A DNA stretch of 33,223 nucleotides from Rickettsiales bacterium (GTDB lineage Bacteria; Pseudomonadota; Alphaproteobacteria; Rs-D84; CACZYB01), in the NCBI GenBank assembly GCA_031263095.1, contig JAISGI010000034.1, positions 1 to 33,223 of the forward strand, given 5' to 3'. The first letter of the stretch is position 1, and each line of letters opens with the position of its first letter. The notes beneath the pieces are model-generated. The model did no database searches and was not told where the DNA came from. It worked only from the letters and a program-made list of their open reading frames with translations. Below are positions 4,276-26,354 of this stretch, piece after piece. A program made the translations under genes and the position numbers.

Positions 4276-4306
4276 TAAAAAAGCCCCGCAAGAGCGGGGC
4301 TTTGGA
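4276..4306 (-). terminator. Terminator for the 4321-5283 gene
   Basis: AAAGCCCCGC-TCTT-GCGGGGCTTTTTT on the minus strand. Confidence 0.85.
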
Positions 4307-4320
4307 TAGAGAGAACAGGA

Positions 4321-5283
4321 TTACGGAAGCGCTTTGGCGGCGTCCTCGCATTCTTTGAGTTCCTTCTTGAGCTCGGCGAGCTGGCTTAGGCCAATACCGC
4401 CAGCGGCGGCTGCGGTAATACCTCCGGCAGTTCCAAGAATATTTAAGCCCATACCTCCTATGAGGCTTGTATCATCGTTGCTTTTTTTGCCGGCGGCGGA
4501 GAGAACGCTTGTTCCTTCGACAGCGGCTTCTTTATTTTCCGCATCTTTTTTCGCTACTGCCGTGGCAGCGCCGGATAAAAGTTTTGTGCCGCTTGCAAGC
4601 GTGCTTACTCCGCCGCCGATGGTTCCGGCAAGCAGGGCGCCGAATAGCTTGTCCGCTTTTTCGACTATGCTGCCGCACTTGCCCTTCACGTTCGCGGTGT
4701 CGACTGCTGCCGTGTTTTCGCTTGCGGTATAGACGAAGCGGATGCGGTCAACTATCTTGACGCCCGACGAGCTGTTCGTCCTATCGTCGTAGCCGGTATA
4801 GACCGCTATACCCTCGCGTATGTCCTTTTCCTCGCAATCCGCGACGGCGGTGTCGGACACCTTAAACGTACCTGTCCTATCCGTGATGTTCAGCGACGTT
4901 ATTCCGCAGAATGCGGTCGAGCCGAACGTCGGGTACGCGCTTATCGCCTTGTCCCCGTATGTGGTCAGTGTGGAAGCTCCGCTGGTGTTGAACATGTCGG
5001 TCGCAAGGTCGGCTACGTTATATTCCTTGCCCTGCTCAAGCTCGATGAACGTATCGTTGAAGTAGGTTCCGGCGGGAATGTTTATGCCCGGAGTTTCCGT
5101 AGTAGTAGTGCTGTTGTCTCTGCCGCCGGGCGCGTACGACCCTCCACCGCGGCCAAGCCGGCGTCCGGAAGCATCGGCTCCGCCACGGCCTGGTGCCGTG
5201 TTGCCACGCTCTAGTGCAGCTTCGGCGGCGGCCCCGGCGATAAGCGCGAAAGCTACCAAAGAAACCTTGTGCATTGTGTTCAT
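4321..5283 (-). CDS. Secreted/surface Gly/Ala-rich hypothetical protein with C-terminal hydrophobic segments
   Basis: Likely start MNTMHKVSLVAFALIAGAAAEA (signal peptide), RBS AGGAGAG; the track's longer start is less likely. C-terminus resembles ORF 1-339. Confidence 0.65.
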   Translation of the reverse strand: MNTMHKVSLVAFALIAGAAAEAALERGNTAPGRGGADASGRRLGRGGGSYAPGGRDNSTTTTETPGINIPAGTYFNDTFIELEQGKEYNVADLATDMFNTSGASTLTTYGDKAISAYPTFGSTAFCGITSLNITDRTGTFKVSDTAVADCEEKDIREGIAVYTGYDDRTNSSSGVKIVDRIRFVYTASENTAAVDTANVKGKCGSIVEKADKLFGALLAGTIGGGVSTLASGTKLLSGAATAVAKKDAENKEAAVEGTSVLSAAGKKSNDDTSLIGGMGLNILGTAGGITAAAAGGIGLSQLAELKKELKECEDAAKALP

Positions 5284-5311
5284 ATATCTCTCCTTTATAA
5301 AGTCTATGGTT

Positions 5312-5340
5312 ATTATAGCACATTTTACCCCCCCCCGCAA
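5312..5340 (-). promoter_or_regulatory. Putative promoter with a G9 tract reaching from the -35 into the -35/-10 spacer
   Basis: Minus strand TTGCGG (GGGGGGGTAAAATGTGC, 17 nt) TATAAT; poly-C at 5328-5336 on plus. Confidence 0.5.
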
Positions 5341-6415: not shown

Positions 6416-6967
6416 ATGACAGAAAAAAACGAAAGCGTGCTTGCTATGGGGCTCGAGACCTCGGGCGCGCCGTCCGAATATGAAATAATCCTCAAAGGCG
6501 GTATAATCGAGCGCGACGCTGAAATAGACAAGCGCTTGGCCGAGGCGGGCTTCTCGAACGAGCAGGCCCAGCTTGTCTATGACCTTGCCGAGGAAACGAT
6601 AGTTCCGGCCATGATGCGCGTGGCCGCCAAGTTCCGCGCGTCGCGCGAGCTTGAAAAACTTGAGAACTATTTCGGCGGCGAGGACAGGTTCGACGAAGCG
6701 GCGCGGCAGATTTCCGCATGGGCGTCGAAGAACGTCGATGCTGCTACTCTTGATGCGCTTGCCTCTTCGTACTGGGGTGTGCTTGCGCTTTACAACATGA
6801 TGAATTCGGGCGAGCCGGGAATGCTTGGTGCGGGACGTACCGCCGATAGTGCGACGAATGAAAAGAAGCTTCGCGACATGATGAGCGATCCGCGTTATTG
6901 GCGCGACAATGACGTCGACTTCATCAAGAAAGTCGACGACGGATTCAAGAACCTCTATCGCGCGTAG
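6416..6967 (+). CDS. Phage capsid assembly/scaffold-like protein
   Basis: Acidic N-terminus and C-terminal SDPRYWRDNDVDFIKKVDDGFKNLY, typical of podoviral scaffold/assembly proteins. Confidence 0.6.
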   Translation: MTEKNESVLAMGLETSGAPSEYEIILKGGIIERDAEIDKRLAEAGFSNEQAQLVYDLAEETIVPAMMRVAAKFRASRELEKLENYFGGEDRFDEAARQISAWASKNVDAATLDALASSYWGVLALYNMMNSGEPGMLGAGRTADSATNEKKLRDMMSDPRYWRDNDVDFIKKVDDGFKNLYRA

Positions 6968-8054: not shown

Positions 8055-8876
8055 ATGTCAATAGAAGAATCTTTCATCAAGCAATTTGAAGCCGAGGTGC
8101 ACCTTGCTTTCCAGCAGACAGGGACCAAGTTGCGCTCGACCGTGCGCACCAAGAACAACGTCAAGGGCGGCTCGACTACTTTCCAGAAAATAGGCAAGGG
8201 CGCGGCGACTACCAAGGTACGGCACCAGCCTATGGCGGTAATGAACCTCGACCATACTCCGGTGGAGTGTATGCTTCAGGATTTCTATGCGGGCGAGTGG
8301 GTGGACGAGCTTGACGAAATCAAGACGAACATAGATGAGCGGCGCGTGGTGGCCTCGGCCGGAGCGTATGCCCTCGGGCGTAAGTCGGACGAGCTTATCA
8401 TTGCCGAGCTTGCCAACGCGGTACAGTCCATAGACGTCGATTCCGAGGGGATGACCAAGGCGAAAATCCTGAACGCGCTTGAAATCCTCAACACCAACGA
8501 TGTGCCGGACGACGGCCAGCGTTTCGCGGTCGTGGGCGTTCACCAGTGGAACGAGCTCTTGAATCTGCCGGAATTTTCCTCGGCCGACTATGTGGGTGAA
8601 TCGTATCCCCTTTTGAAGGGGGTCGAATCGCGCAAGTGGCTTGGCATAAACTGGATTATGCACAATGCGCTTCCGGCGGCGTCGGATGTACGTTCGTGCT
8701 TCATATACCACAAAAACGCGATAGGGTACGCGAGTGGGCAGGATGTCAAGACCGACATTTCTTGGAGCGGAGAGAGAGCAGCGCATTTCGTCTCGAACTC
8801 GATGAGCCAGGGCGCGAAGCTTGTCGATTCGGAAGGGGTTGTGAAAATCAAGTGCGACGACACAACCAGTATATAG
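8055..8876 (+). CDS. Phage major capsid protein
   Basis: MSIEESFIKQFEAEVHLAFQQTGTKLRSTVR...VKGGSTTFQKIGKG...DFYAGEWVDELDEIKTNIDERRVVASAGAYALGRKSDELI, typical of podoviral capsid family. Confidence 0.85.
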   Translation: MSIEESFIKQFEAEVHLAFQQTGTKLRSTVRTKNNVKGGSTTFQKIGKGAATTKVRHQPMAVMNLDHTPVECMLQDFYAGEWVDELDEIKTNIDERRVVASAGAYALGRKSDELIIAELANAVQSIDVDSEGMTKAKILNALEILNTNDVPDDGQRFAVVGVHQWNELLNLPEFSSADYVGESYPLLKGVESRKWLGINWIMHNALPAASDVRSCFIYHKNAIGYASGQDVKTDISWSGERAAHFVSNSMSQGAKLVDSEGVVKIKCDDTTSI

Positions 8877-13450: not shown

Positions 13451-13476
13451 TACGTCAAATTTCCATGGGAGAGAAA

Positions 13477-14880
13477 ATGGACGAAATTCAAAATCTGGTG
13501 CCGAAGCTCAAAGTCCTTGGCCTTGGTGGCGCGGGTTGCAACGCTGTGGATTCAATGATAGAAAACGGTGTTTCGGACGTGGAGTTCATTGCCGCGAACA
13601 CGGACGCGCAGTCGCTTGCCCTTTGCAAAGCCTCGCGGAAAATCCAGCTTGGGCGCAAGACGACGCGTGGGCTTGGTTCGGGCTCAAAACCAGAGGTCGG
13701 GCTTGCCGCGGCGGAGGAATCCATTGCCGAACTTGCCGAGGCTATTGAGGACGCGGACATACTTTTTCTTGCTGGCGGAATGGGCGGAGGAACGGGTTCG
13801 GGCGCGATGCCGGTTGCGGCCTCGCTCGCTCGGGAAAAGGGCGTACTTTCCATCGCGGTTGTGACCACTCCGTTCGATTTCGAGGGAGAGAAAAAATCCG
13901 CAATAGCAAAGGACGCGCTTGCCAAACTTTCTGCCTCGTGTGACTGTCTTATCGTTTTGCCGAACCAGAACCTTTACAAGGTTGCGGGCGAGGGTTCGAC
14001 GTTCAAGGCTGCGTGCAAGATTTCGGATAATGTGCTTCTTGAGGCTGTGAAAAACCTTACCGATCTTATCATGAAGCCGGGGCTTATCAACCTAGACTTT
14101 GCGGATATACGTGCGGTAATGGAAAGCAGGGGCAGGAGCATAATCGGTGTCGCAATCGAGCGAGGGGAGAACCGCGCCGCGCGTGCGGTTGAGAGAGCTC
14201 TTGCCAATCCTCTGTTCGCGAGCGAATCGATACATGGTGCCTCTGGCCTGCTTGTCAACATAACTGGCAACGCGGACAACCTTGCGCTCTCTGAAGTGCG
14301 CGAGATTATGGATACGGTCAGGGCATCTATCGACACGGCGAGCGTGGATTTCGTATTCGGGACGTGTTTCGACGAATCTATGGGGGACGACCTTAAAGTC
14401 GCCATAATCGCGACTGGAATCGGAGCGGAGGAGCGGGCTTTCGCACCTCGGCCGTCGACGGTTTTTGCGCCTATGCCGAAGCCGGTCGAACCCAAGGAGG
14501 AAAAGCCTTTCAGCGCGAGTAAGCCCAGCTCCATAGAGGCATTTATTGAGGACGAGGCCAAGGAAATCAAGAAAGCGAGCGAGCTTTTCGCATCCAAGGA
14601 CGACGACGATCCAGAACCGCCCAAGGGCCGCAAGCCAAACCCTTTGACCGAATTCTTCACCAAGCTTGGCTCGGGCAGCGAGGGTAAGTTATTCGACGAT
14701 GTGGCCGGTTCGGACATAAAGCTTTCCGTCGATTCCGTTTCGAGCGAGGAGGACAATGTAGTCTTTCTTGCCGGCAGTGTCGAGAAGGGCGCCAAGGAAG
14801 ACAAACAAATCGACCTTATGGAGATGATTAGGAAGATGGAGGAAAACCTCGAGCTTCCGGCAATATTCAAACGCAATTGA
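13477..14880 (+). CDS. ftsZ: Cell division protein FtsZ
   Basis: KVLGLGGAGCNAVDSMI, FIAANTDAQSL, AGGMGGGTGSGA, TPFDFEG, GLINLDFADIRAVM T7 loop, C-terminal ELPAIFKRN. RBS GGGAGA favours 13477 over 13465. Confidence 0.95.
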   Translation: MDEIQNLVPKLKVLGLGGAGCNAVDSMIENGVSDVEFIAANTDAQSLALCKASRKIQLGRKTTRGLGSGSKPEVGLAAAEESIAELAEAIEDADILFLAGGMGGGTGSGAMPVAASLAREKGVLSIAVVTTPFDFEGEKKSAIAKDALAKLSASCDCLIVLPNQNLYKVAGEGSTFKAACKISDNVLLEAVKNLTDLIMKPGLINLDFADIRAVMESRGRSIIGVAIERGENRAARAVERALANPLFASESIHGASGLLVNITGNADNLALSEVREIMDTVRASIDTASVDFVFGTCFDESMGDDLKVAIIATGIGAEERAFAPRPSTVFAPMPKPVEPKEEKPFSASKPSSIEAFIEDEAKEIKKASELFASKDDDDPEPPKGRKPNPLTEFFTKLGSGSEGKLFDDVAGSDIKLSVDSVSSEEDNVVFLAGSVEKGAKEDKQIDLMEMIRKMEENLELPAIFKRN

Positions 14881-16400: not shown

Positions 16401-17264
16401 ATGAGCGAAGAATCATTCCTTGCGGACTATGATCTCCTGAAAATCCCCATTATTGAGAACGGGGAGGCGGCGTGGCCGGAGCGTTATTCGCCCCAGAAAA
16501 TCGAGGAGCTGCGCGTGCGTGTCGGGGATGCGAAATTCTCCTCTCAAATGATGTTATCGCCCGTGGATTCCTCGGGTGTGCAGTTCGACGTTGCCCGTCT
16601 TTCTTTCTACTCGGACGACCTTGTATTCAACGAGGGGAACGGTGCGATTTCGTTCTCTATCGGGCGCGCTAAAATCGTGCGGTGCAGCTGTTGGTGGGAT
16701 CCGTCGTATGCTGAAATCGGCGGAGACGCAAGCGTCGTGTGTGTCGTATTTTCCGGAGAGGACGGCCTGCGCTATCTGTACGACGTCGAGTATCTGCGCG
16801 GCGGTGGAGAAGGCTCGGGCTATGTACAATGCGAGCAGGTAGCCCGCTTTTTACGGCGGAATTTCGTGCCGCAAATTTTTATCGAAGCGAACGGAATAGG
16901 CAAGTTCCTGCCTGAAATGCTGCGCGAGCGGCTGACTCTGGACGGGATGGCGTGCAAGGTTGTAGAGCAAACCTCGAGCAAGTCCAAGGCCATACGAATC
17001 GCGGATGCTTTCGACGCCGCGCTTGCCGGAGGGCGGCTGCTTGTCCATTCGCGTGTGCGGAGTACGCCTTGGGCTCAAGAATTCTCCGAGTGGAGCGCCG
17101 TCTCGAGCGCGCATGATGACGGGATGGATGCTGTGGCGGGTGCGCTTCTGGCCTCTGGTGTGCGCATGCCCGCACGCAGCGCCGAGCTTGACAACGCTTT
17201 CCGCGGGCGTTTCGGGCATGGCAAGAAAAAGCTTAAAATCAAGCGGTTCCGGGCCATAATTTAG
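16401..17264 (+). CDS. Terminase large subunit, C-terminal RNase H-like nuclease half only
   Basis: AAWPERYSPQKIEELRVRVGDAKFSSQMMLSPVDSSG linker, then acidic residues in CWWDPSYAEIGGDASVV, IFIEANGIGKFLPE and HDDGMDAVAGALLA. No Walker motifs. Confidence 0.85.
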   Translation: MSEESFLADYDLLKIPIIENGEAAWPERYSPQKIEELRVRVGDAKFSSQMMLSPVDSSGVQFDVARLSFYSDDLVFNEGNGAISFSIGRAKIVRCSCWWDPSYAEIGGDASVVCVVFSGEDGLRYLYDVEYLRGGGEGSGYVQCEQVARFLRRNFVPQIFIEANGIGKFLPEMLRERLTLDGMACKVVEQTSSKSKAIRIADAFDAALAGGRLLVHSRVRSTPWAQEFSEWSAVSSAHDDGMDAVAGALLASGVRMPARSAELDNAFRGRFGHGKKKLKIKRFRAII

Positions 17265-21182: not shown

Positions 21183-23660
21183 ATGAAGCTTTTAATAGTC
21201 GAGTCGCCGGCAAAGTCGAAAACTATCGGCAAATACGTGGGTTCGGATTATGTCGTCGTGCCCTCTATCGGTCATGTGCGCGACCTTGAGCCCGTGGACG
21301 GCTCGGTCGATACCGAGCGTGGCTTTGCGATGAAGTGGCAAGTCATGCCGGGCAAGGAAAAGCAGGTCAAGGAAATCGAGCGTCAGCTTAAAAAAGCCGA
21401 CGAGCTTTATCTTGCAACCGACCCTGACCGCGAGGGAGAGGCTATATCGTGGCACATCGCGGATATTTTGCGCGGACGAGGCGAGCTTACCAAACCGGTT
21501 CGTCGCGTTGCTTTCCACGAAATCACCAAGTCTGCGGTCGCGAAGGCGTTGGCCGAACCGAGGGACATTGACCAGAAGCTTGTCGATGCTTATTTTGCGC
21601 GTCGTGCGCTTGACTATTTGGTCGGGTTCAAATTGTCGCCGGTTTTATGGCGCAAACTACCGGGTTCGAAGTCTGCCGGGCGAGTACAATCGGTCGCGCT
21701 TCGTCTTATTTCCGACCGGGAGAAGGAAATCGAGACCTTTATCAAAAAAGAATTCTGGTCGGTCGATGGCAAGTTCGAGACGGGAGAGGGCAAGCCCTTT
21801 GCGGCGAAGCTATTCTCGCTTGACGGCAAGAAGCTTGACAAGTTCGATATTCCGACGGGCGCTAACGCAAGCGACATTGTGGCGCGACTTTCGGGCGACT
21901 ATAAGGTCGGGAATATCGAGCGGAAGAAGCAGGCCAGGAAGCCCGTGGCGCCTTTCACTACTTCGACCCTGCAGCAGGAGGCGTCGCGCAAGCTGGGCTT
22001 TTCGGCCAAGCTTATCATGTCCACTGCGCAGCGGCTTTACGAAGCCGGGCACATAACCTATATGCGTACGGATTCGGTCAACCTTTCGGCGGAAGCGGTG
22101 TCGGCCATGCGCGACATAATACTTCGAGACTATGGGGCCAATTATTTGCCGAAGTCCGCGGTGTCGTACGACAACAAGTCCAAGAATGCGCAGGAGGCGC
22201 ACGAAGCCATACGCCCGTCGCATTTCGAAGCTCCGCCCAAATCCCTTATGAGCGAGCTTGACGCACAGCAGCTAAAGCTTTACGAGCTTATATGGAAGCG
22301 AGCGGTGGCGTCGCAGATGGTGCCGGCCGAGCTGAACCTTGTCGCGGCGGACATCATGGACGGGAAGGGTGCGATATTCCGCGCGAATGGTTCGATGATT
22401 GCGTTCGACGGGTATATGAAGCTTTACCGTGAAGACATGGACGACGTGGACGGGGACGATGAAAACAAAATGCTTCCGACCATGGCGGAGGGGGACATAA
22501 TAAAAGCCCTCGAGATAAAGCCGGAGCAGCACTTTACCCAGCCGCCGCCGCGGTTCGGCGAAGCCTCGCTTGTCAAGCGCATGGAAGAGCTTGGAATTGG
22601 GCGGCCGTCGACCTATGCTTCGATTTTGTCGGTCATACAAGACCGCGGCTATGTCGCGCTTGAGAAGAAAAGGTTCATACCAAGCGAGCGGGGGCGAATC
22701 GTGTCCGCTTTCCTTGGCCACTTTTTCCCCAAGTATGTCGAGAACGACTTTACCGCGTTCATGGAAGACGAGCTTGACGAAATATCCAATGGAGCAAAGG
22801 ACTATCGCGACGTTTTGGGCTCGTTTTGGGGTGGGTTCAAGCAAGCGGTGGATGCGGGCGCGGAGCTCGCCCCGACCCTTGTAATTGAGGAAATCAACAA
22901 AGACCTTGAGGCGCACTTTTTCCCTCCTCGCGCGGATGGGAGCGACCCACGGGAGTGTCCGGAATGCCACGCGGGCAAGCTTGACGTTCGTCTTGGGCGT
23001 TATGGTGCGTTTATCGGCTGCTCGAACTATCCGGAGTGCAAGTACACAAAGAACCTTACCGATATTCCATCGGAAGATGGCTCGGCCGACGAATCCGGGC
23101 GGGTCAAGTCGGCGGAGGGGCAAGTGCTTGGCCAGAACGAGGCGGGTGCGAATGTCTATCTGAAGACCGGGCCTTATGGCCCGTATGTTCAGCTTGGCGA
23201 AGCGGTCAAGGGAGATCCGCGCGGGCCGGTGCGATCCTCTATTCCGAAAGGCGTGCTTGTCGACTCGCTTACGCTTGAGCAGGCGATATTTTTGCTATCG
23301 CTTCCGAAGCTGCTTGGCGTGGATGACGACGGGGCGGAGATTACTCTGCACACTGGGCGTTATGGGCCCTATGTCAAGAAAGGCGACGCTTTGAAAACCG
23401 TGCCCGAGTCGATGAATATATTCGACCTTACCTTACAGCAGGCGCACGAGCTCCTTATCGGCGCAGTATCGAAATCGCGCGGAAAAGTGCTTGGCGTTCA
23501 TCCGGCGGACGGGACACAAGTTCTTTATCACGCCAATGGCAAGTACGGCCCCTACGTGCAGCACAACCGCATTTTTGCGACAGTCAAGGAGCCGGAGGCG
23601 GAGGTCACACTCGACCTTGCGCTTTCCAAGCTTGCGGCGAAGGAGAAGTCGAAGAAATGA
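21183..23660 (+). CDS. topA: DNA topoisomerase I
   Basis: MKLLIVESPAKSKTIGKYVGSDYVVVPSIGHVRDL, TDPDREGEAISWH, ITYMRTDSVNLS; Cys-type zinc ribbon CPECHAGKLDVRLGRYGAFIGCSNYPECKYT. Confidence 0.96.
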   Translation: MKLLIVESPAKSKTIGKYVGSDYVVVPSIGHVRDLEPVDGSVDTERGFAMKWQVMPGKEKQVKEIERQLKKADELYLATDPDREGEAISWHIADILRGRGELTKPVRRVAFHEITKSAVAKALAEPRDIDQKLVDAYFARRALDYLVGFKLSPVLWRKLPGSKSAGRVQSVALRLISDREKEIETFIKKEFWSVDGKFETGEGKPFAAKLFSLDGKKLDKFDIPTGANASDIVARLSGDYKVGNIERKKQARKPVAPFTTSTLQQEASRKLGFSAKLIMSTAQRLYEAGHITYMRTDSVNLSAEAVSAMRDIILRDYGANYLPKSAVSYDNKSKNAQEAHEAIRPSHFEAPPKSLMSELDAQQLKLYELIWKRAVASQMVPAELNLVAADIMDGKGAIFRANGSMIAFDGYMKLYREDMDDVDGDDENKMLPTMAEGDIIKALEIKPEQHFTQPPPRFGEASLVKRMEELGIGRPSTYASILSVIQDRGYVALEKKRFIPSERGRIVSAFLGHFFPKYVENDFTAFMEDELDEISNGAKDYRDVLGSFWGGFKQAVDAGAELAPTLVIEEINKDLEAHFFPPRADGSDPRECPECHAGKLDVRLGRYGAFIGCSNYPECKYTKNLTDIPSEDGSADESGRVKSAEGQVLGQNEAGANVYLKTGPYGPYVQLGEAVKGDPRGPVRSSIPKGVLVDSLTLEQAIFLLSLPKLLGVDDDGAEITLHTGRYGPYVKKGDALKTVPESMNIFDLTLQQAHELLIGAVSKSRGKVLGVHPADGTQVLYHANGKYGPYVQHNRIFATVKEPEAEVTLDLALSKLAAKEKSKK

Positions 23661-25339
23661 AGACCGTATGGTATCTTTTGAAAGCATACTGGAGCAATGC
23701 CAAGGGGCACCGAACAGCTATGTTCGCGACTGCGTTCTTCTTTACCGCAAGCCTTGCGATATGGTCGTTCGAGCCAATGCTGTTCGGCAAAATCATCAAC
23801 ACTTTGCAACACGGCAGCGGCGATGGTACGATGGCGGCAATCACCCGGCTTGCAATTGTATGGGCGGGGATGTATGTTGCTTTCAACATCCTGTTCAGAG
23901 CTGCGGAGTATATGGCGACCTCGCTTGCATATAAGGTCAAGGCCGGGTTTATCGCGCGGAACTATCGTCATCTTGCCCGCCTGTCCCTTAGCTGGCACAC
24001 AGACCATCACAGCGGAGAGTCGATAAACCGTGTGAACAAGGCTGCGGATACGCTTTACCAGCTGTTCGGGTGGCAATGGCAGTATTTCGACGTGAGCATG
24101 CGGGTGGTGGGCTCGTTCACCGCTTTATTTTTCCTGAACAGCAATGTAGCGTTATTGGCCTTGGGCGTGGCGGTGTCGTTCTTTATCTTATCGTCCTTTA
24201 TCGACCGCAAGATTCAGAGGCAGATGGACAGGATAAACCTTATCCAGAACAAGATTTCGGCCGTGCTTTACGATTTCATAAGCAATATGCGGAGCATTAT
24301 AATCCTGCGCTTGGGGCACAAGACTGCGCGCGATTTGGATGCGAAAGTCGAGGAGGGGCGGCGTCCGAGTGTGTTCGTGTTCGGCGTGCTTGCCCAGTCG
24401 AAGTGGCTGTTCATATCGCTTACTTTTGTGCTGCTTGAGGTCGGGATAATATTCTACTATATCCGTTCGAGCTTGGCGGGGGGGGGTAGTGTGAACCTTG
24501 GCGAGCTGTCGGCTATATTCCTATACCTCGAGAAAATCGGGCAGTCGTTCTATCAGCTTGCGGATATATACTACAACCTTATGCAGCACAAGGCGAACCT
24601 TGAGAATGCTCGCGAAATCGAGGCGGCGAGCGATTCTATTCCGCCGGAGGGGCGTGCGTTTCCGTGGAAGAAAATTGAAGTGCGCGGTCTGCGTTTCTCT
24701 CATCCGAATCGGGCGGAAGAGGTTTTATCAGGCATAGACTTTTCATTCAAGCGCGGCGAGAAAATCGCCCTTATGGGCGAGTCGGGCGCGGGCAAGTCGA
24801 CGCTTATGCTCCTGTTGCGTGGACTGCTTCCGGAGGCGAGCGGAGAAGTGCTTGTCGATGGGAAGCGTCTCAAGAAGGGTTTTGGCGCACTTGCGCCCAT
24901 CACTACTCTCATGCTTCAAGACCCGGAGGTGTTCGAGCAGACGATACGGTACAACATTACCATGGGGCTTTCCTATCCCGAATCGGCGATAGAGGAGGCG
25001 TTGCGCCTTTCGCGGTTCGATCAAGTACTTAAAAAACTTCCGGACGGGTTAGAAACCGACATACGGGAAAAGGGCGTGAACCTGTCGGGAGGTGAGCGGC
25101 AGAGGCTTGCCCTCGCACGCAACATTTTGGCAGCGGCGGGGTCGGACATAATCCTTATGGATGAGAGCACGTCCAGCGTGGATTTTGCCAACGAGAACCT
25201 AATATACGACGGCATACTTGCGGCGTTCAAGGACAAGACAATCATCGCCTCTATCCACAAGCAAGTTTTGGTTGAAAAGTTCGAGCGGGTCGTACGCATT
25301 GAAAAAGGGCTCGCCGAAAGCAAAAACAAAGGAGCTTAA
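23657..25339 (+). CDS. ABC transporter, fused permease/ATPase (exporter type)
   Basis: Six-TM-like N-terminus, Walker A GESGAGKSTL, signature NLSGGERQRLALARNIL, Walker B IILMDESTSSVD. Confidence 0.9.
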   Translation: MKTVWYLLKAYWSNAKGHRTAMFATAFFFTASLAIWSFEPMLFGKIINTLQHGSGDGTMAAITRLAIVWAGMYVAFNILFRAAEYMATSLAYKVKAGFIARNYRHLARLSLSWHTDHHSGESINRVNKAADTLYQLFGWQWQYFDVSMRVVGSFTALFFLNSNVALLALGVAVSFFILSSFIDRKIQRQMDRINLIQNKISAVLYDFISNMRSIIILRLGHKTARDLDAKVEEGRRPSVFVFGVLAQSKWLFISLTFVLLEVGIIFYYIRSSLAGGGSVNLGELSAIFLYLEKIGQSFYQLADIYYNLMQHKANLENAREIEAASDSIPPEGRAFPWKKIEVRGLRFSHPNRAEEVLSGIDFSFKRGEKIALMGESGAGKSTLMLLLRGLLPEASGEVLVDGKRLKKGFGALAPITTLMLQDPEVFEQTIRYNITMGLSYPESAIEEALRLSRFDQVLKKLPDGLETDIREKGVNLSGGERQRLALARNILAAAGSDIILMDESTSSVDFANENLIYDGILAAFKDKTIIASIHKQVLVEKFERVVRIEKGLAESKNKGA

Positions 25340-26096: not shown

Positions 26097-26170
26097 GCGG
26101 CTGTAGTTTAGCGGTAAAATGCAAGCCTTCCAAGCTCGAGTCGGGGTTTCGACTACCCCCAGCCGCACCA
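26097..26170 (+). tRNA. tRNA-Gly (anticodon UCC)
   Basis: GCGGCTG...CAGCCGC acceptor, anticodon loop CTTCCAA, T arm GGGGT-TTCGACT-ACCCC, encoded CCA. One A-C mismatch in the anticodon stem. Confidence 0.88.
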
Positions 26171-26262
26171 TAGCTCAATCTGTTCCTGTCGCTGCAACCT
26201 TGCGGGGCGCATGCCTCCCCCCCCCCTAACACCGGCGGGTCGCAGTGTGCTTGCGTGCTCGG

Positions 26263-26286
26263 TTTCGACTAATCCCAGCCGCACAA
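26263..26286 (+). repeat. Degenerate direct repeat of the tRNA-Gly 3' end
   Basis: TTTCGACTAATCCCAGCCGCACAA vs TTTCGACTACCCCCAGCCGCACCA (26147-26170), 3 mismatches in 24. Confidence 0.75.
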
Positions 26287-26354
26287 AAAAGTCAATCGAA
26301 AGTTGCTCCTTGGCTTGTAAGTTCAGTTGCTGGTACTTTCGAGTGGAAGCATGA

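Follow-up and report, generated by a model that had tools for sequence, protein, structure and literature searches.

A poly-G tract in a promoter spacer of a Rickettsiales bacterium points to a putative genome-wide homopolymer switching system

Introduction

Phase variation by slippage in homopolymers has been described for promoters in several bacteria. In Neisseria meningitidis porA, as described in PMC7864442 (citing van der Ende 1995), a poly-G tract lies between the -35 and -10 elements of an outer-membrane protein gene, its length sets their spacing, and 17 bp is the optimum. In Treponema pallidum the tract of tp0126 likewise lies between -35 and -10, with 17-bp spacing measured to be the best, and the poly-G of the tprL promoter ranges from 7 to 11 and is mostly 9; the products of both genes are candidate outer-membrane proteins (PMC7864442). 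Here we consider a 33,223-nt stretch from the genome of a Rickettsiales bacterium (contig 13 of the assembly; hereafter the window), in which nine consecutive G residues precede a gene for a protein with a signal peptide. A preliminary description had proposed that this tract is a phase-variable promoter switch, and the locus thus raises the question of whether the tract is such a switch and whether it stands alone.

Results

A G9 tract in the promoter spacer of the window gene

On the minus strand, the order of elements upstream of the window gene is AACTTGC-GGGGGGGGG-TAAAATGTGC-TATAAT-AACC...AAAGGAG...ATG. The promoter, TTGC-G9-TAAAATGTGC-TATAAT, combines a perfect -10 element (TATAAT, 5317-5312) with a -35-like hexamer that matches at only three of six positions (TTGCGG, 5335..5340, from promoter scoring at spacing 17), and the G9 homopolymer read from the sequence (5328..5336) runs into the spacer between them, which is 17 bp long taking TTGCGG as the -35; two of its nine residues overlap the last two positions of that hexamer. 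As in porA and tp0126, a homopolymer, here of more than eight residues, lies between -35 and -10. The tract, the TTGCGG-17-TATAAT arrangement and the weakness of the -35 had all been noted in the preliminary description and are borne out here; the -35 is so weak that a generic promoter scan of the window does not list the site, which scored 10 in our scan of both strands around tracts. What had been overlooked is a TG at 5320-5319, flagged as true in promoter scoring, which makes the -10 extended (TGC-TATAAT, 5312..5320; TGCTATAAT) and suggests that the promoter may rely on the -35 only in part. A ribosome-binding site, AAAGGAG, lies at 5290..5296 and the ATG at 5283-5281, all on the minus strand. 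A longer reading frame from an in-frame TTG at 5340, in which the tract would be coding, was rejected because it has no ribosome-binding site, and the tract is best read as part of a promoter.

The gene downstream (4321..5283, minus strand) encodes, as previously described, a protein with a clear signal peptide (MNTMHKVSLVAFALIAGAAAEA); it has 320 amino acids and ends in a glycine-rich hydrophobic segment evident from sequence and alignment, and a predicted intrinsic terminator lies 3' of the coding sequence (4280..4303, minus strand). The earlier label of surface protein derives only from the signal peptide and this C-terminal segment, which together suggest a secreted or membrane protein with a putative surface location. 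A Pfam search with the protein returned no match, and its fold model was unusable (pLDDT 28).

Poly-G tracts form a genome-wide class with a sharp length peak

The tract proved to be real, although its treatment as a single locus did not hold, since it is one of a genome-wide set. The genome (854,641 bases, 88.6% complete, a metagenome-type assembly of 44 contigs) contains 119 runs of eight or more G or C over its whole 0.855 Mb, or ~139 per Mb. Its best NCBIfam hits, an alphaproteobacterial-type TopA model and MsbA_rel, suggest no more than an alphaproteobacterial affiliation. In the 530 kb for which all lengths were tabulated, G/C runs are sharply bimodal, with 1758 of length 4, 272 of length 5, 11 of length 6, one of length 7, three of length 8, 97 of length 9, nine of length 10, and one of length 12, while A/T runs decay smoothly (3254, 1285, 400, 104, 22, 1, 1, and 1). 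Runs of nine thus exceed the prediction from the decay of shorter runs by about 100-fold or more, far above expectation as in contingency loci, and the whole genome contains three G8, 106 G9, and nine G10 tracts of exact length. A chance origin was rejected on the basis of this excess and of the promoter-spacer enrichment given below, and loss of mismatch repair was rejected as a cause because mutS (mutS1) is intact.

The peak at nine is shared by another species of the genus (G002; 10, 121, and 25 tracts of G8, G9, and G10, respectively) and by two genomes of another genus (G005 and G006; 2/22/4 and 4/31/9). Counts are near zero in other members of the family (G007-G010), and G057, a distant relative within the order, has the ordinary decay of 56/13/4. 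Of the 142 genomes sampled across the class, that of the window ranks highest (106 vs at most 24), although many of the others are several times larger. The analysis as a whole draws on one assembled genome for the window and on one genome per species, with gene starts and signal peptides called by simple scripts.

The window holds two further tracts. A G9 at 24478..24486 (plus strand) lies within an ABC-exporter gene (23657-25339) and is read in frame as Gly-Gly-Gly, as are, in this or a similar form, about a dozen tracts inside ordinary genes across the genome; some tracts are thus not switches by design. The third, a G10 at 26217..26226 (minus strand), is intergenic and has one copy of a tRNA-3'-end-like sequence on either side (CGGCTGGG..TAGTCGAAAC; 26120-26300). 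Separately, the window gene adjoins a set of T7-like phage genes (5525-17264) that surround ftsZ (13465-14880) and include genes for capsid assembly (6416-6967), capsid (8055-8876), and terminase (16401-17264); several of these genes occur on related viral contigs of about 10-14 kb. The neighbouring capsid has 80 relatives on viral contigs, all of them phage kin and none another copy of the locus, and viral contigs searched as a strain comparison for the promoter and for the second protein family described below yielded no matches.

Tract promoters are enriched and avoid the optimal spacing

Most of the other tracts are found either in a promoter spacer or immediately behind the ATG of a gene for a secreted protein. 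We scanned both strands around tracts for a TTG-type -35 and a TANNNT -10, and at a cut-off score of 10 or more, 25 of 112 tracts (~22%) fall in promoter spacers, compared to 3 of 305 (1%) G5/C5 runs in the same genome (p about 1e-12). The closest relatives of the window promoter are the near-identical tract promoters on C37 (TTGACA-G9-TAAATGTGC-TATAAT), C23 (TTTACA-G9-TAAATGTGT-TATAAT), and C3 (TTGCCTC-G9-TAAATATGC-TATAAT), in each of which TAAATNTG-TATAAT follows the tract. Genes with signal peptides lie downstream of 14 of the 25 tract promoters compared to 100 of 419 in the background by a crude test, and this enrichment is indicative only because three of the 14 (C37, C3:104, and C3:7491) were assigned by eye and 11 by script.

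The earlier statement that a spacing of 17 is optimal agrees with the genome's own untracted promoters, 66 of 105 of which have this spacing within the 15-19 range. Tract promoters at their present lengths depart from this preference (spacing 18 in 11, 15 in seven, 19 in six, 16 in three, and 17 in two; p = 3e-8), in a set that has laxer hexamers than the untracted one and in which one tract is counted on both strands. With strict hexamers (TTGACN, and at least 5/6 for the -10), none of about ten tract promoters counted manually has a spacing of 17, and those of G002 likewise avoid it (p = 0.002). The window promoter departs from this trend, being one of the two with a spacing of 17.

A distinct promoter subclass, TTGACAAAA-N-G9-TATTTTGTC, occurs on C11, C4, C20, and C9 of the genome and also in G002. 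It carries a GACAAAA/TTTTGTC inverted repeat around the tract, which may be an operator overlapping it, and precedes mostly non-secreted proteins, including a Fic-domain protein.

The tract recurs with homologues of the window gene

The window gene belongs to a family (family B) defined by the common C-terminal segment and with four well-aligned paralogues, and all five of these genes have a 5' poly-G tract. In the paralogue on C17 a G10 is in frame (ATG-AAC-AAA-ATA-CGC-AC-G10), while in that on C37 and both copies on C41 a G9 after the ATG is out of frame. A partial relative, on C24, lacks a tract in the stretch examined. Some genes bear a tract in the promoter spacer and another immediately behind the ATG (L040 1870-1970; L103 1410-1500): the C37 gene has a promoter tract in addition to its coding tract, a partial family-B relative on C1 has both, and C3 is alike. 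Expression of such genes would need both tracts to be permissive.

The association extends to several genera, with tracts in the promoter or the 5' coding region of homologues in G001, G004, G005, and G006. A G9 or G10 lies just after the ATG of the homologues on G004 C94, G005 C1 and C6, and G006 C31, and is out of frame in all of them. One G001 homologue (C82) has a C10 tract in its promoter spacer at the position seen in the window promoter, and in another (C51) a C12 follows the signal peptide, with the reading from the ATG, judged by eye, out of frame with the downstream match. Distant homologues on G005 C3 and G008 C6 have no tract.

Coding-start tracts are out of frame at the modal length

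A larger set of coding-start tracts belongs to a second family (family A) of proteins of about 165-209 amino acids with a signal peptide, an NYYTCTAC motif, conserved ends, and a variable middle. The genome has 42 copies with a tract after the ATG, the last of which ends C37 and was read by eye. Of these, 40 are at G9 and every one of the 40 is out of frame; they fall into two architectures with different length requirements. The single G8 and single G10 copies are both in frame. The chance of none in frame among 40 under random phase is about 1e-7, although non-independence of the gene copies lowers the effective number of events. An intact tract is missing from three further members, of which one has an interrupted tract and two have ordinary signal peptides. 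Across the genome, all four coding-start tracts that depart from the modal length are in frame (G8 on C35; G10 on C17, C3, and C21). The rule is not absolute, given that a G9 coding-start tract on C6 (23727) reads in frame and a G10 copy in G002 (C2:88439) was read as out of frame.

C35 carries about half of the 42 copies in a cluster that uses both strands; their ends are conserved, their middle varies strongly, and they may also recombine. Pfam returned no match to family A. Its fold model is confident and beta-rich, and had no significant match when searched against the PDB.

Discussion

The best reading of the site is a spacing switch like those of porA and tp0126 inside a genome-wide poly-G contingency system. 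We consider it probable that the G9 acts as a contingency tract, subject to slipped-strand mispairing, in the spacer of the promoter of a gene for a secreted or membrane protein, and is one of a genome-wide set. Slipped-strand mispairing in replication would add or remove one G, the length of the tract would set the -35/-10 spacing of the window promoter (17 at G9, 16 at G8, and 18 at G10), and a shift from 17 to 16 or 18 would lower transcription, either tuning or switching the gene. Given its extended -10, this promoter may respond in a graded way. The idea of a phase-variable promoter finds strong support in context, with ~25 tract-bearing promoters apparent in the genome, the same tract in paralogues and in homologues of other species, and the frame statistics of the coding tracts. 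At the window gene itself, the poor -35 speaks against a switch, spacing could be less important given the extended -10, and the promoter, in contrast to most of those with tracts, has its optimum spacing at G9.

The strongest competing explanation, as a neutral account of any one site, is a mutational attractor, in which replication and repair drive long G runs to nine and the run in the window promoter arose by chance with little effect on expression. The sharp peak at nine appears in all contexts, including in-frame Gly-Gly-Gly within ordinary genes, which fits an attractor at this length; mutS is present and intact, and the extended -10 may tolerate changes in spacing. The strong promoter-spacer excess over G5/C5 runs, the repeated association of one gene family with tracts in several genera, and the frame statistics of family A all weigh against it, and we regard it as unlikely. 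Less probable still, and to our minds improbable, is slippage of RNA polymerase or the ribosome on DNA that stays at G9, giving a low constant amount of in-frame product from genes with coding tracts. Such RNA-level correction would permit product from coding tracts that, at G9, are nearly all out of frame, but it leaves the promoter-spacer tracts, including that of the window, unexplained, and the four off-mode coding-start tracts (one G8 and three G10), all in frame, suggest switching at the DNA level. An assembly or sequencing artefact of homopolymers is very improbable: the assembly is of metagenome type, in 44 contigs, and a consensus length can hide mixtures, but the peak at nine in the independently assembled G002, G005, and G006 and its absence in other relatives argue against an artefact, as do the recurrence of tracts in specific conserved contexts and the occurrence of lengths 8, 10, and 12.

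Within a contingency system, G9 is best read as a mostly OFF default. We tentatively propose, at somewhat short of even confidence, that the genome is arranged in opposition to its modal tract length: G9 would be the slippage equilibrium, at which coding tracts are out of frame and promoters have spacings of 15, 18, or 19 rather than 17, and are thus off or weak, and rare G8 or G10 variants would turn on individual members of a family of more than 40 genes together with accessory secreted proteins, giving, in an uncultured bacterium with a reduced genome, sparse, nearly one-at-a-time variation of proteins by homopolymers only. The positions of the tracts are those where a change in length would be expected to alter the expression of exposed or secreted proteins. 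We infer that slippage of the tracts is frequent, that tract length governs expression, and that variation of exposed proteins is the advantage gained.

Families of exposed proteins switched by homopolymers at the 5' end or promoter include pmp of Chlamydia pneumoniae and vlp of Mycoplasma, from which the present system differs in family size and in its uniform G9 OFF state. The window promoter resembles porA, alongside which poly-C opc is named, in a homopolymer between -35 and -10 whose length would set their spacing and in the optimum of 17, and differs from it in having a weaker -35, an extended -10, and about 25 counterparts in a small genome. Like tprL, whose tract is mostly of nine, and tp0126, whose best spacing is 17, it has a promoter poly-G; the proteins are unrelated, however, and here coding-start tracts dominate with one modal length. 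Campylobacter jejuni likewise has many poly-G tracts of similar length in reading frames, with 29 loci of seven or more repeats reported for NCTC11168 (PMC4965091), compared to ~119 tracts of at least eight in 0.855 Mb here, a 42-gene family with a uniform 5' tract, and many promoter tracts. A literature search for a system of this kind in gut or uncultured alphaproteobacteria turned up no paper.

Of more weight than the single window locus is the set of tracts across the whole genome, whose ~119 near-identical G runs point to an unusually large system of random on/off switching. If this is correct, a sub-megabase and apparently uncultured bacterium commits an exceptionally large part of its gene set to homopolymer switching, the uniform G9 together with a default OFF state yields a direct prediction on how slippage equilibrium and reading frame co-evolve, and ON/OFF states would be scorable, culture-free, in existing metagenome reads.
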